Of a stretch of 64,000 bases of DNA, positions 23,686 to 36,764 are shown in pieces. The DNA comes from Methanocalculus sp. (GTDB lineage Archaea > Halobacteriota > Methanomicrobia > Methanomicrobiales > Methanocorpusculaceae): assembly GCA_013329165.1 (NCBI GenBank), contig DUKV01000061.1, positions 1 through 64,000 on the forward strand, read 5' to 3'. Under the pieces are notes generated by a model. That model saw nothing but the letters and a program-made list of their open reading frames with translations, did no database searches and was not told the origin of the DNA. A program made the position numbers and the translations under genes. The first letter of the stretch is position 1. Each line of letters starts with the position of its first letter.

Positions 23686-24368
23686 GTTCTCTTCCTGCTG
23701 AGATACTCATTCAGCGCTTCAAGGGTTCCGGTAAGGGATCCATCGCCGATAACTGCCGGCTCCACTCCCCCTCTCCGCATCGCGTCTGCGGTGATATCTC
23801 CGATTGCAATCGGGATGATACCGGTATCCTTCTCCCAGATTGCCATTAAAAACGAGTTTGCGCTTGTGAAGAGGATCGCGTCTGCGCCTTCCGTGTCAAG
23901 TGGTCTCTGCGTCGGAACAAGCCCGTAGCACCGGTACTCATATGCCAGACCCCCGGCATCCTCAATTGCCTGGATGAGGGCGGGGTTTGGGACATCGGCA
24001 CGGGGAATACCGATCGCCTTCCCCCCAATCCAGTCGCCGAGGTAGGGCACAAAATCCCGGGAATAGTATGTGGGGAGCGTTTCGACCTTCAGCCCTTCCT
24101 TCTCCAGCATCCGGGCTGTCTGGGGTCCGATTGCGATGATCCGGGCATCTGTTGCGAGCAGCGGGGCTATATGCCCGGCAGGCAGCGCGCTTGTGAAGAA
24201 GATGCAGTCGAAGGCGCCGCGGTTTGCTTCAAGCACAAAGGCCTGGATCTGGTTATCATAGATATCTGCTGCCAGAGGCGAGACAATCCGGCAGGAATGG
24301 CCGTATTGCTCACAGGTAGCCTGATCCCTGCCTGCCTTCTCCGGAAGCCTGGTTACCGCGATGATCAT
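23682..24368 (-). CDS. hemD: Uroporphyrinogen-III synthase
   Basis: Closes and inverts ring D of hydroxymethylbilane, a step toward the corrinoid and F430 cofactors that methanogens need. The family is poorly conserved; support comes from the two-domain alternating pattern, the segment CIFFTSALPAGHIAPLL and ILFTSANSFLMAIWEK with the serine and asparagine typical of HemD, and the length of 228 residues. Overlaps cbf5. Other tetrapyrrole genes are not in the window. Confidence 0.88.
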   Translation of the reverse strand: MIIAVTRLPEKAGRDQATCEQYGHSCRIVSPLAADIYDNQIQAFVLEANRGAFDCIFFTSALPAGHIAPLLATDARIIAIGPQTARMLEKEGLKVETLPTYYSRDFVPYLGDWIGGKAIGIPRADVPNPALIQAIEDAGGLAYEYRCYGLVPTQRPLDTEGADAILFTSANSFLMAIWEKDTGIIPIAIGDITADAMRRGGVEPAVIGDGSLTGTLEALNEYLSRKRT

Positions 24369-24429
24369 TGATCTCTATAGGGACGGATGCATGATATTCT
24401 TGTCTTCTCATGCCGATGTCTGTTATCGC

Positions 24430-25650
24430 ATGATGGATGGGATCCTGATCGGAGCGGCAATCGGGGTGGTACTCGGCACCATCAGCGGGTGTACGCCGGG
24501 GATCCATTCAAACACGATGGCAGGTATCCTGCTCGGGATCCATCCGGCGCTCCTCGTCCTATTTGGCCCTGCTGTCTTTGCTGCATCGGTAACGGCAACC
24601 CTGATCACGCATACCTTCCTGGATGCCGTACCTTCCACCTTCCTCGGTGTGCCTGATCCCGATACTGCGATTGCGGTTCTGCCTGCCCATGATCTCTGCA
24701 TGAAAGGGCTTGGAGAGGAGGCGGTTCGGATCTCGGCACTGGGATCTGCTGCGGGTGCTGCATTCGGGCTGGTGCTCTTCCCGCTCTTCTTCTCTCTCCT
24801 GCCCCCCCTCCAGCCGTACCTCGACTGGTGGATCGGCCTGCTCCTGCTGACGGTTGCCGGGGTGCTTGTGGTCAGGTCCGAGGCGCCGGAATGGGCGGCT
24901 CTTGTCTTCATCGCATCGGGGATCCTCGGTTCATTCACACTTGCCTATTCATACCTCTCCTGGCAGGTGCTCCCCGGTGGGAGCCCGCTCCTCCTTCCGC
25001 TTCTGACCGGACTCTTTGGACTGCCGATCCTCCTGAAAGGAGCGACTGGCACAATCCCTGAGCAGACATACCGGGGAATCCGGATGGAGCGGCGGGAGAT
25101 CGCAGGGGCTGCTGCTACCGGGACGCTTGCCGGTGCAGTCGTCGGGTGGATGCCGGGTTTCTCAAATGCAACCGCAAATGCGGTACTTGCCTCATTCATC
25201 TCGTATACGCGGAATGGGAGGGGGTATATCCTTGCAACAGGTGCGGCGAATACGGCGAATGCGTTCCTTGGGATAGCTGCCCTCTATGCACTTTCACGGG
25301 CACGGAACGGGGCAAGGGGGGCAATCGCAACAGAAGAACTGCCGCCGCTTGCCGGGATCATGCTTGCGGCCTGTATTGCAGCGGTGGCGGCGTATCCTCT
25401 CACGATTCTTTTATCGAAGGGTTCCCGGTACCTGGCGGCCCTGAATGTCAGGCGGCTGAATCTTCTGGTCATCATCTTCCTTGTGGCGCTGACCGGTCTT
25501 GTGACGGGACCTTTCGGACTCCTGATCCTCGCGCTTGCAACTGCTATCGGGGCGGTGCCCCCGATGGTCTCGGTGCAGCGGGTCTTCTGCATGGGGGCGA
25601 TCATGGTCCCGATCATCTGCTGGTCGGTTCTTGGGATTCCGCTCTTTTAG
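24430..25650 (+). CDS. TctA-like integral membrane permease (archaeal DUF112 type)
   Basis: About 406 residues with ten or more hydrophobic segments. GTISGCTPGIHSNTMAGILL near the N-terminus and AGAVVGWMPGFSNATANAVL in the middle are the paired G-x3-G-x-PG motifs of TctA-type proteins (PF01970). TctA works with TctB and a binding protein; neither is present here, as in most archaea, so the substrate is unknown. I prefer the ATG at 24430; the longer frame from 24361 overlaps the divergent hemD start. Confidence 0.85.
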   Translation: MMDGILIGAAIGVVLGTISGCTPGIHSNTMAGILLGIHPALLVLFGPAVFAASVTATLITHTFLDAVPSTFLGVPDPDTAIAVLPAHDLCMKGLGEEAVRISALGSAAGAAFGLVLFPLFFSLLPPLQPYLDWWIGLLLLTVAGVLVVRSEAPEWAALVFIASGILGSFTLAYSYLSWQVLPGGSPLLLPLLTGLFGLPILLKGATGTIPEQTYRGIRMERREIAGAAATGTLAGAVVGWMPGFSNATANAVLASFISYTRNGRGYILATGAANTANAFLGIAALYALSRARNGARGAIATEELPPLAGIMLAACIAAVAAYPLTILLSKGSRYLAALNVRRLNLLVIIFLVALTGLVTGPFGLLILALATAIGAVPPMVSVQRVFCMGAIMVPIICWSVLGIPLF

Positions 25651-25657
25651 AGCCTGC

Positions 25658-25998
25658 TCGCTATTTCATGTGGGTAGTTTGAAGCAGGTGCGGCGCGGGT
25701 ATCGGGGGGCGGGGTAGAGCTGGATCAGGCTGACAGGGGTGATACACCCTTGCTCAAGAGAGCTACCTGAAAGGCGATTCATCAGAATCGGGGATTTATC
25801 TGCTTCTGGCAGCCCACAAAGCCTTCCCGCCCCTCCCGCGCTGCAATCTGCGGTCACCCGGTACAACCTCCCTGCGAAGCATGTGCGGACGGGGACGGGG
25901 CGGTGGGGAAAAAAAGCCTGAGTGAACAGATCCGAATGCATGATTCAAAGATCTGATAGCCATATGATGACTCGTTCCCTATGTAAAAACCACAACAG
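25658..25998 (-). repeat. Dispersed ~340-nt repeat, copy A
   Basis: Read on the minus strand this stretch aligns along its whole length with 36344-36681 on the plus strand. A ~55-nt core (from CGCGGGAGGGGCGGGAAGG to CCCCGATTC) is identical. Shared features: hairpin CGATTC-N4-GAATCG (25775-25790) with a different loop in each copy, a GCTC/GAGC hairpin, and GGGGCGGG (25706-25713) complementary to CCCGCCCC (25826-25833). An open frame of 91 codons exists on the minus strand but looks spurious. Lies between the TctA-like and antiporter genes. Confidence 0.85.
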
Positions 25999-26015
25999 AT
26001 CAGCGAAGCGCCCTT

Positions 26016-26942
26016 TTAGATGAGTCCCGCCAGTATCCCGATGTAGGCGAAGTACCCGAAGAGGACGATAGCTGAAATGACCCGGGTTGCCCGCTCGCCT
26101 GCATAGATGAGGGGGATTGCGGCGAGCGAGAAGAATGCCATTATCAGGAGATCGCCGGTTTCTGTGATCGGGATGGGAACAATCAGGGCGATGATGCCCA
26201 TCACGAAGAGGAGGTTGAAGATGTTGCTTCCAAGCAGGTTGCCGACCGAGATCCCAGGCTCGCCTTTCAGAATTGCTGCGGCTGACGTGGCAAGTTCAGG
26301 GAGCGAGGTGCCGATGGCGACGATGGTCATCCCGATCACAAAAGCGGAGATCCCAAGGGCTGTCGCGATTCCGACTGCGGAGGTGACAACAAGTTGTGCG
26401 CCGATGATGACTGCGATAATCCCTCCTGCCGTAAGGATATAATCGAGACTGCCTTTTGCCAAAATGGGCAGTGTCCCTTCTATCCTGCTCTCCTTCCAGA
26501 GCGTTCTGAGGATTAAGACAAATGCGATCAGGAAAATGGCTCCTGCTGGTGCGGAGAGGGTGCCGGACCATGCAACGGCAACAAAGAGGGCAGTTGCCGC
26601 AAGCATCAGCAGAGCCTGCCTCTTCACCCCTTTGTTTGCAGGATCATGCCTGTTGAGTGCATGGGGGTTGAGCAACCCGCAGATCGCCAGTACAAGTGCG
26701 ATATTGGCGATATTGCTCCCGATGATGTTTCCGGTTGCGATCTCGGGGTTACCGGTCAGGCCTGCATTCATGCTGACGACGAACTCAGGCAGCGAGGTTC
26801 CGAATGCGACAACAGTGAATCCGATGAGTGAGGGGGTGATCCCAAACCGTGAGGCGAGCCCGCTCCCCCCGCCGACAAAGAGATCCGCACCCTTCACAAG
26901 GAGTATGATGCCGACTACAAAGAGTGCCGCCTCGATGAACAT
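26016..26942 (-). CDS. Calcium/sodium antiporter (CaCA family)
   Basis: 308 residues in two inverted halves of about five helices. Each half has the alpha-repeat motif: GTSLPEFVVSMNAGLTGNPE and later GTSLPELATSAAAILKGEPG, each followed by GN-x-x-GSNI. These line the cation path in YrbG/NCX_Mj-type exchangers. Exports Ca2+ or a similar cation against Na+ or H+. A stand-alone gene facing away from nop5. Confidence 0.95.
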   Translation of the reverse strand: MFIEAALFVVGIILLVKGADLFVGGGSGLASRFGITPSLIGFTVVAFGTSLPEFVVSMNAGLTGNPEIATGNIIGSNIANIALVLAICGLLNPHALNRHDPANKGVKRQALLMLAATALFVAVAWSGTLSAPAGAIFLIAFVLILRTLWKESRIEGTLPILAKGSLDYILTAGGIIAVIIGAQLVVTSAVGIATALGISAFVIGMTIVAIGTSLPELATSAAAILKGEPGISVGNLLGSNIFNLLFVMGIIALIVPIPITETGDLLIMAFFSLAAIPLIYAGERATRVISAIVLFGYFAYIGILAGLI

Positions 26943-36242: not shown

Positions 36243-36312
36243 TCAGAGCAAAACAGGTGAGCGATAGCACTTTTCTTGTTTAAACGCGCTTCTGAGTTTT
36301 TGAAGTTATTCT

Positions 36313-36331
36313 TCTCTCTCTCTCTCTCTCT
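36313..36331. repeat. TC dinucleotide microsatellite
   Basis: About nine TC units in a row between the S-layer gene and repeat copy B. Confidence 0.8.
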
Positions 36332-36343
36332 GCTCCTCGCGGT

Positions 36344-36681
36344 AACGTGTGGGTTTTCAATACGGAACGAGTCATCATCCGGCTATAGGGTGGCTTGAAT
36401 CACGTATTTGGATCTGTTCACTGAGGCATTTTCCCCACCACCCCTGTCCTGTCCGCACGTGCTTCGCAAGGAAGTTGTACTGGCTGATCGCAGATGCTGG
36501 CGCGGGAGGGGCGGGAAGGCTTTGTGGGCTGCCAGAAGCAGATAAATCCCCGATTCTTACGAATCGCCTTTCAGGTTGCTCTATCGAGCAAGGGTTTATC
36601 AGCTCTGTCATCCTTATCCCTTCGCTTGCCCCGCCCCCCTATACCTGCGCCGCACCTGCTCCAATCAGTTCCCATGATCCG
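36344..36681 (+). repeat. Dispersed ~340-nt repeat, copy B
   Basis: Inverted relative to copy A (25658-25998). Conserved hairpins: CGATTC-TTAC-GAATCG at 36551-36566 and TTGCTC-TATC-GAGCAA at 36576-36591; GGGGCGGG (36508-36515) is complementary to CCCGCCCC (36630-36637), closing a domain around both hairpins. Loops differ from copy A while stems are kept. Lies downstream of the S-layer gene, as copy A lies downstream of the TctA-like gene. Open frames across it look spurious. Confidence 0.85.
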
Positions 36682-36764
36682 TTTGTTGGATCACGAAAGA
36701 GCAAGGGAGGGTGTTTTCTTACCGGAATCACTATCCGGATTGAAAACAACATTCCTGTATTCTC

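Follow-up and report, generated by a model that had tools for sequence, protein, structure and literature searches.

The locus

The window, i.e., the whole analysed stretch of 64,000 nucleotides from a Methanocalculus genome, contains two related stretches in opposite orientation, 25658-25998 on the minus strand and 36344-36681 on the plus strand, which can be aligned over their full length, with a BLAST match of 83% over query positions 5-320 (320 aligned columns). The initial annotation had described them as a dispersed repeat of two inverted copies, and this description was borne out by the full-length alignment and by many more matches in the genome. The structural details given there also hold: the stem CGATTC-N-GAATCG is intact in both copies with different loops (TGAT and TTAC), the GCTC/GAGC stem is likewise kept despite loop changes, and GGGGCGGG and CCCGCCCC are complementary in copy 1 and in copy 2. 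On the other hand, terminal inverted repeats and target duplications, which had been reported as lacking, are both present a few bases beyond the limits drawn at that time (Table 1).

The genes that border copy 1 are convergent, and each of the two CTTTTAGA duplications contains the stop codon of one of them. The empty site, CTCTTTTAGATGAG, is undivided in G004 and has its counterpart in G003, the genomes of two related species. Copy 2 occupies the same place as the insertion L075 of G006 and is missing in G003 and G004; compared by eye, its sequence is a mosaic, the ends resembling type I and the part to the right of the core type II. A CT dinucleotide repeat was noted at 36310-36330, at the left end of copy 2, and it is because the left flank now contains this repeat that copy 2 has no clean target duplication. 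Copy 1 is short (361 bp), without transposase, has terminal inverted repeats, a target duplication and an empty site, and belongs to a family of several dispersed copies, and it is close to certain that both copies are MITEs, i.e., short non-autonomous transposons.

Table 1. Positions in the window of the two elements and of their parts
Feature	Position	Strand	Basis
Copy 1, complete type I MITE, 361 bp	25652..26012	-	Ends aligned to those of further type I copies; G004 and G003 have the empty site
Target duplication CTTTTAGA of copy 1, containing the TAG stop of the plus-strand gene 24361-25650	25644..25651	.	
Target duplication CTTTTAGA of copy 1, other side, containing the stop of the minus-strand gene 26016-26942	26013..26020	.	
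Type I right terminal repeat of copy 1, GCCTGCTCGCTATT on the plus strand	25652..25665	-	Imperfect inverted repeat of the left end (by eye)
Type I left terminal repeat of copy 1, GGCGCTTCGCTGAT in element orientation	25999..26012	-	Alignment with type I copies
Core B of copy 1, ~230 nt, common to type I and type II MITEs	25679..25908	-	Alignment of 53 copies
Most conserved hairpin domain of the core, 26 base pairs modelled	25732..25808	-	
Copy 2, ends like type I, sequence right of the core like type II; approximate limits	36331..36711	+	By eye against the orthologous insertion L075 in G006
Core B of copy 2	36434..36666	+	

Ends and target duplications of the two element types

Full-length type I copies start with GGCTCTTCGCTGAT and finish with AATAGCGAGGAGGC, with variation, and by eye these ends form an imperfect inverted pair of ~14 bp (GGCTCTTCGCTGAT versus the reverse complement of AATAGCGAGGAGGC). 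Most type I copies are bordered by an 8-bp AT-rich target duplication: for the 20 copies with both ends, the flanks match on average at 6.55 of 8 positions (best 8-mer, small offsets allowed) versus a mean of 4.58, with a maximum of 5.6 in 2000, in the control with shuffled right flanks, the duplication being perfect in 6/20 copies and agreeing at 7 or more of the 8 positions in 11/20. Type II copies span from GG(C/T)TCTTCTCCATATTTCTG to CAGAATTTTGGAGAAGAGTC; their target duplications, inspected by eye, are perfect in L060 (TTTATTCT), while in the others an imperfect one or none was seen.

A long type I form, with ~110 extra bases between the left module and the core, was noted in L034, L064, L067 and L082, and seems to have moved as a unit, since that of L082 has a perfect target duplication. 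A mini element of ~100 bp with type I ends was found in G006 (L111, C556:8658); its left end leads into a hairpin-like stretch.

Family size and distribution

The whole-genome nucleotide search proposed in the initial annotation gave 18 places at E<=0.001 in the genome of the window, 13 of them of at least 229 bp and five of them fragments, with a best non-self match of E 3.3e-138, a similarity well beyond chance; the cores in this genome number 13. The search among other Methanomicrobiales, proposed there as well, brought up further copies, all of them in Methanocalculus. By BLAST among 61 genomes (that of the window and 60 relatives), matches occurred in six, all of one genus, and the covariance model of the hairpin domain, with strict filters, matched in six of 199 genomes of the order, again of one genus, and gave no match in the other 193. 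The model recorded 13 matches in G000, 10 in G003, two in G002, seven in G004, 13 in G006 and at least 24 in G001, where the core L054, found by BLAST, is not among the matches listed. Its 69 rows, minus two opposite-strand repeats of the same places and one 25-nt fragment, correspond to at least 66 cores spread over six of the eight Methanocalculus genomes, G005 and G007 showing no core by BLAST or by the covariance model.

The exact core pattern was found in 23 stretches of named genome contigs, all of Methanocalculus or of Methanocorpusculaceae archaeon UBA456, and there was no match in phages, plasmids or, for the one exact pattern searched, viral contigs. A sample of the phylum gave matches in six of 392 genomes, five of Methanocalculus and G394, the match in the latter, outside the genus, covering 33 nt at 88% and being taken as chance. 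The family is confined to Methanocalculus within the genomes searched.

A core common to two backbones

The core of ~230 nt sits in two ISL3-like MITE backbones and has been exchanged between them. From the 53 aligned copies, L065 and L067 (runs of N) and L058_2845 were dropped to give 50 cores, in the tree of which the backbone label I/II switches at least eight times, as counted on the rows labelled I or II and with the tree bootstrap not settled. Mixed clades with high support include one at 98/92 that joins the type I copy L078 to the type II copies L059 and L060, and one at 100/99 in which the type II copy L054 groups with two type I copies, L037_4983 and L081_2630, and with L038, which is unassigned. 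The element L208 of G001 is a hybrid of 494 bp, its left end being of type II and its right end of type I; the flanks of L208, CTTTTTTT and GTTTTTTC, agree at 6/8 positions. Core-deleted elements persist in both the type I and the type II families.

Some arrangements were noted beside these. The same core-deleted type II insertion stands before an orthologous gene in L042 (G000) and L072 (G004), and the L042 copy additionally contains an IS605-type tnpA/tnpB pair (names by eye). The locus L052 (G001:C3:266467-267069) is a tandem array in which a full core and two partial ones follow each other at ~185 bp. Another GC-rich hairpin-like repeat, GGGCGCGAAGCGCC ... GCGGGGCGAATAGCCCCGC ... GGAGGATGTT, adjoins the cores in L037, L057, L069 and L083, and in L084 it lies between an ISL3 remnant and its end.

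Relation of the ends to ISL3 elements

The search for ISL3 transposases by PF01610 in 120 genomes of the order found them in five. In one of these loci, L171 of G033, the transposase lies between the matching inverted ends GGCTCCTCGCTGTTTTAAGTAGGTAA and GGCTCCTCGCTGTTTTATGTGGGTAA. In BLAST against a database of nine ISL3 loci, the type I right end matched the locus L167 of G058 over 19/19 nt (E 2e-4) and L171 over 26 nt at 85% (E 0.009), the subterminal part of the right end of copy 1 matching both; the type I left end only resembles ISL3 ends, and the ISL3 end matches are short. When the whole element was compared with the same nine loci, the end alone was matched and no core was found there. 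In G001, a type II end was located ~360 nt downstream of what remains of an ISL3 transposase. The eight Methanocalculus genomes, which are draft assemblies, yielded no intact ISL3 transposase, G001 having a remnant of 45 positions and the other seven none; this is weak counter-evidence, as draft assemblies lose IS copies. A link of the MITEs to ISL3 is very likely. An 8-bp repeat has also been described for a transposon whose transposase is of the ISL3 family (PMC9782665). The MITEs would have been moved in trans by an ISL3-family transposase that is now mostly lost or absent from the assemblies.

Position between convergent genes

Among the type I copies, 15 of the 22 scorable ones lie between convergent genes, versus 64 of 312 adjacent pairs (20.5%) in a background that includes the gene pairs around the elements (binomial p 1.8e-6, with orthologous insertions counted repeatedly), while the other copies do so in 6/24 cases; scorable neighbours were missing on one side for 5/27 type I and 2/26 other copies. 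In this test, the type II class comprised every copy without a type I label (26 in all), among them the two chimeras, the four unassigned copies and L055_3003, a type I copy in the tree count. Archaeal terminators are A- or T-rich. The duplications are A- or T-rich in the same way, which is compatible with a target preference as well as with selection against insertions elsewhere. The positions of type I copies would be accounted for if the elements enter AT-rich 3' ends where genes converge, either because such sites are preferred as targets or because insertions in other places have been purged.

Fold and covariation of the core

For 14 sampled copies, folding compared with shuffles gave z from -1.5 to -6.2 on the element strand and from -1.4 to -7.5 on the other strand. 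By RNAalifold the gap-trimmed alignment reached -119.7 on the element strand and -135.0 on the other, versus a poor energy of -12.1 for the MAFFT alignment of the whole core; the difference was attributed to alignment quality, and the shorter hairpin domain was relied on. The inferred changes per column were 1.8 at paired versus 5.0 at unpaired positions, such conservation of stems being partly expected, because the structure was derived from the same sequences. In the first hairpin, GATTC/GAATC is retained in 44 of the 49 copies fitting the pattern, among which the loop takes 23 forms and the spacer measures 2 to 5 nt; this stem and TTGCTC/GAGCAA are near-perfect dyads.

The alignments differ in the copies included, A2 consisting of 46 copies (L077, L082, L055_3003 and L051_4919 being further left out) and A3 of 48 of the 50, L049 and L039 being excluded because they deviate from the pattern. 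Of the cells in the 26-pair domain, 91.4% are paired. The covariation test proposed in the initial annotation had a divided outcome. The double-sided changes, 26 cells in five pairs and all in helix 1, were reached by 0/500 shuffles and compare with at most 11 cells in slid controls, and the covariation score of the domain was likewise reached by 0/500; the number of double-sided pairs (five) was, however, matched by 37/500 shuffles and that of further pair types (12) by 225/500, these two being the measures least misled by the relatedness of the copies. In A3 the outer CAG and the four TCC/GGA variants, which belong to hairpins 1 and 2, are misaligned, and hence they were miscounted in the 500-shuffle test.

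The middle arm segments pair above all 2000 shuffles, with p 0.007 on 30 distinct combinations, and direct arm parsing gave p 0.007 for the AGX-Y pair. All five middle arm pairs are formed in 28/49 copies and in 5/13 held-out copies; in the 13 held-out copies of G001, the covarying pair m2-r4 is standard in all (GC in seven, AT in five, GT in one) and the AGX-Y pair in 11. The replacement of CCT/AGG by TCC/GGA in hairpin 2 occurs in 4/50 copies and in 2/13 new ones. Changes to non-standard mismatches were inferred 72 times versus four direct Watson-Crick to Watson-Crick changes, and the background-corrected ranking placed just two structure pairs within the top 100 of 27261 column pairs, which speaks against strong covariation. 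The Watson-Crick to AC events (39) versus the Watson-Crick to GU events (23), p 0.056, do not favour the strand chosen in the initial annotation as the RNA. As related copies are not independent, the structural evidence is graded as moderate and mixed, and a multi-hairpin fold of the core is plausible from the modelling.

Comparison with known systems

BOX repeats are of a modular build. Together with RUP and SPRITE, they have been described in Streptococcus pneumoniae as clustered mobile intergenic repeats, some of them terminator-like (PMC10969869); compared by description, the Methanocalculus elements differ in their unrelated host and their two ISL3-like backbones. In the same review, QMITEs of Coxiella are linked to small RNAs (PMC10969869), and they are similar in that a MITE sequence possibly gives rise to RNA, the Methanocalculus core being known from sequence alone. 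The ISL3-derived MITE of Methanosarcina acetivorans, with ISMac21 as the partner, is listed with 179 bp, six copies, IR 22 and DR 7 (PMC3852290), and is likewise a short archaeal non-autonomous element, multicopy, with ISL3 ends and direct repeats, while the Methanocalculus elements, set apart by description, are longer and have a hairpin core in two backbones. The ISL3 elements L171 and L167 share the ends matching the type I right end; unlike the MITEs, they carry a transposase, with no core there by BLAST.

In the open-licence PMC literature, Methanocalculus and "miniature inverted-repeat" never occur together. Because MITEs, including an ISL3-derived one in a methanogen, are already known (PMC3852290; review PMC10969869), the novelty lies in a hairpin-rich module exchanged by two MITE families. 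Thus, two ISL3-like MITE families with a common mobile hairpin core, and a hybrid having one end of each, are documented in a methanogen genus, and their polymorphic insertions (empty and orthologous sites) allow tests of target choice at convergent gene ends and of the effects on archaeal mRNA 3' ends.

Interpretation of the elements and their core

The initial annotation had suggested a structured RNA or a non-autonomous element. The second suggestion agrees with the many copies, the terminal repeats and target duplications, the empty sites and the ISL3-like ends; the first is met in part, by a foldable core with kept stems and variable loops, while the mixed covariation and the lack of an Rfam match at the cut-off limit the support. 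None of the outcomes named as refuting in the initial annotation occurred: there are further copies, some pairs show changes on both sides, and none of the frames stays open through all 50 cores. It is highly probable that these are Methanocalculus MITEs with ISL3-like ends, moved in trans and carrying an exchanged hairpin core. With weaker backing, the core may fold, as single-stranded RNA or DNA, into several hairpins; the 3' ends of transcripts from neighbouring genes are the most likely setting, and mRNA ends could be stabilised or insulated there. The core would be retained because it is helpful to the element or makes the element tolerable to the host, and recombination among the copies would spread and homogenise it. 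The best guess as to its function is a hairpin in neighbouring 3' transcripts that may render the element harmless or useful, and the persistence of core-deleted elements counts against a structural role of the core.

That persistence, together with the exchange between backbones and the hybrid L208, the few direct compensatory events and the pair and type counts inside the shuffled range, is what would be expected under the main rival, quite possible in our estimate, by which the element is purely selfish and the core nothing more than the inside of a MITE, its copies resembling each other through recent amplification and gene conversion; the uneven conservation (1.8 versus 5.0 changes per column at paired and unpaired positions) and the near-constancy of the first stem, whose loop has 23 variants, argue against it. 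The same contrast of conserved stems and variable loops, the folding of both strands better than shuffles (z about -1.4 to -7.5, 14 copies), a part of the covariation measures and the occurrence in two backbones could also point to a genuine non-coding RNA gene acting in trans, the cargo of two MITE families. This is rather unlikely, since by eye no consistent promoter was found in both backbones, the core was not found in two of the eight genomes of the genus and the covariation is mixed, and in the Rfam search four tRNAs alone were recorded in the window at gathering scores, the three matches around copy 1 being all far below the cut-off. The near-perfect dyads GATTC/GAATC and TTGCTC/GAGCAA might instead be double-stranded binding sites of a dimeric protein; the chances of this appear slight, as the first spacer ranges over 2 to 5 nt among the 49 copies fitting the pattern, by which the half sites would be turned relative to each other, and the flanking arms pair too, with double-sided changes. 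Slighter still are those of a transposon-encoded structured RNA or ssDNA fold that both ISL3-like MITE families would require to be mobilised or to insert safely at gene ends. To our knowledge, no RNA or hairpin partner is known for ISL3 transposition, and such a partner would be new if this reading were true.

Complementary ends around small hairpins are reminiscent of the msr-msd RNA of retrons, which serves a reverse transcriptase, but this reading was rejected as very improbable: reverse transcriptases were detected in just three of the eight genomes of the genus and not in three core-bearing ones, and of the two that were scanned, one has a maturase domain of the group II intron type. The core does not code for protein. 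Although open reading frames of 91 and 104 aa cross the window copies, they have no Pfam match, no frame is open in all 50 cores (the best in 29/50), as expected from the judgement of the initial annotation that the open frames were spurious, and the core lengths fall in all three classes modulo 3, so that a remnant of a protein-coding gene is hardly conceivable. A TnpB/omega-RNA origin was also set aside, L108 and L042 being read as probable IS605-type insertions into these MITEs.

The reverse transcriptase genes L163 (G000:C39) and L164 (G001:C12), the latter being the one with the group II maturase domain, are located on contigs with three cores each. In L042, a fragment of the core 3' end lies beside the IS605-type pair, and in L108 (G000:C29:49028) a type I left end is followed by a hairpin-like stretch and then by a TnpB gene (Pfam OrfB_IS605, Cas12f1-like_TNB).
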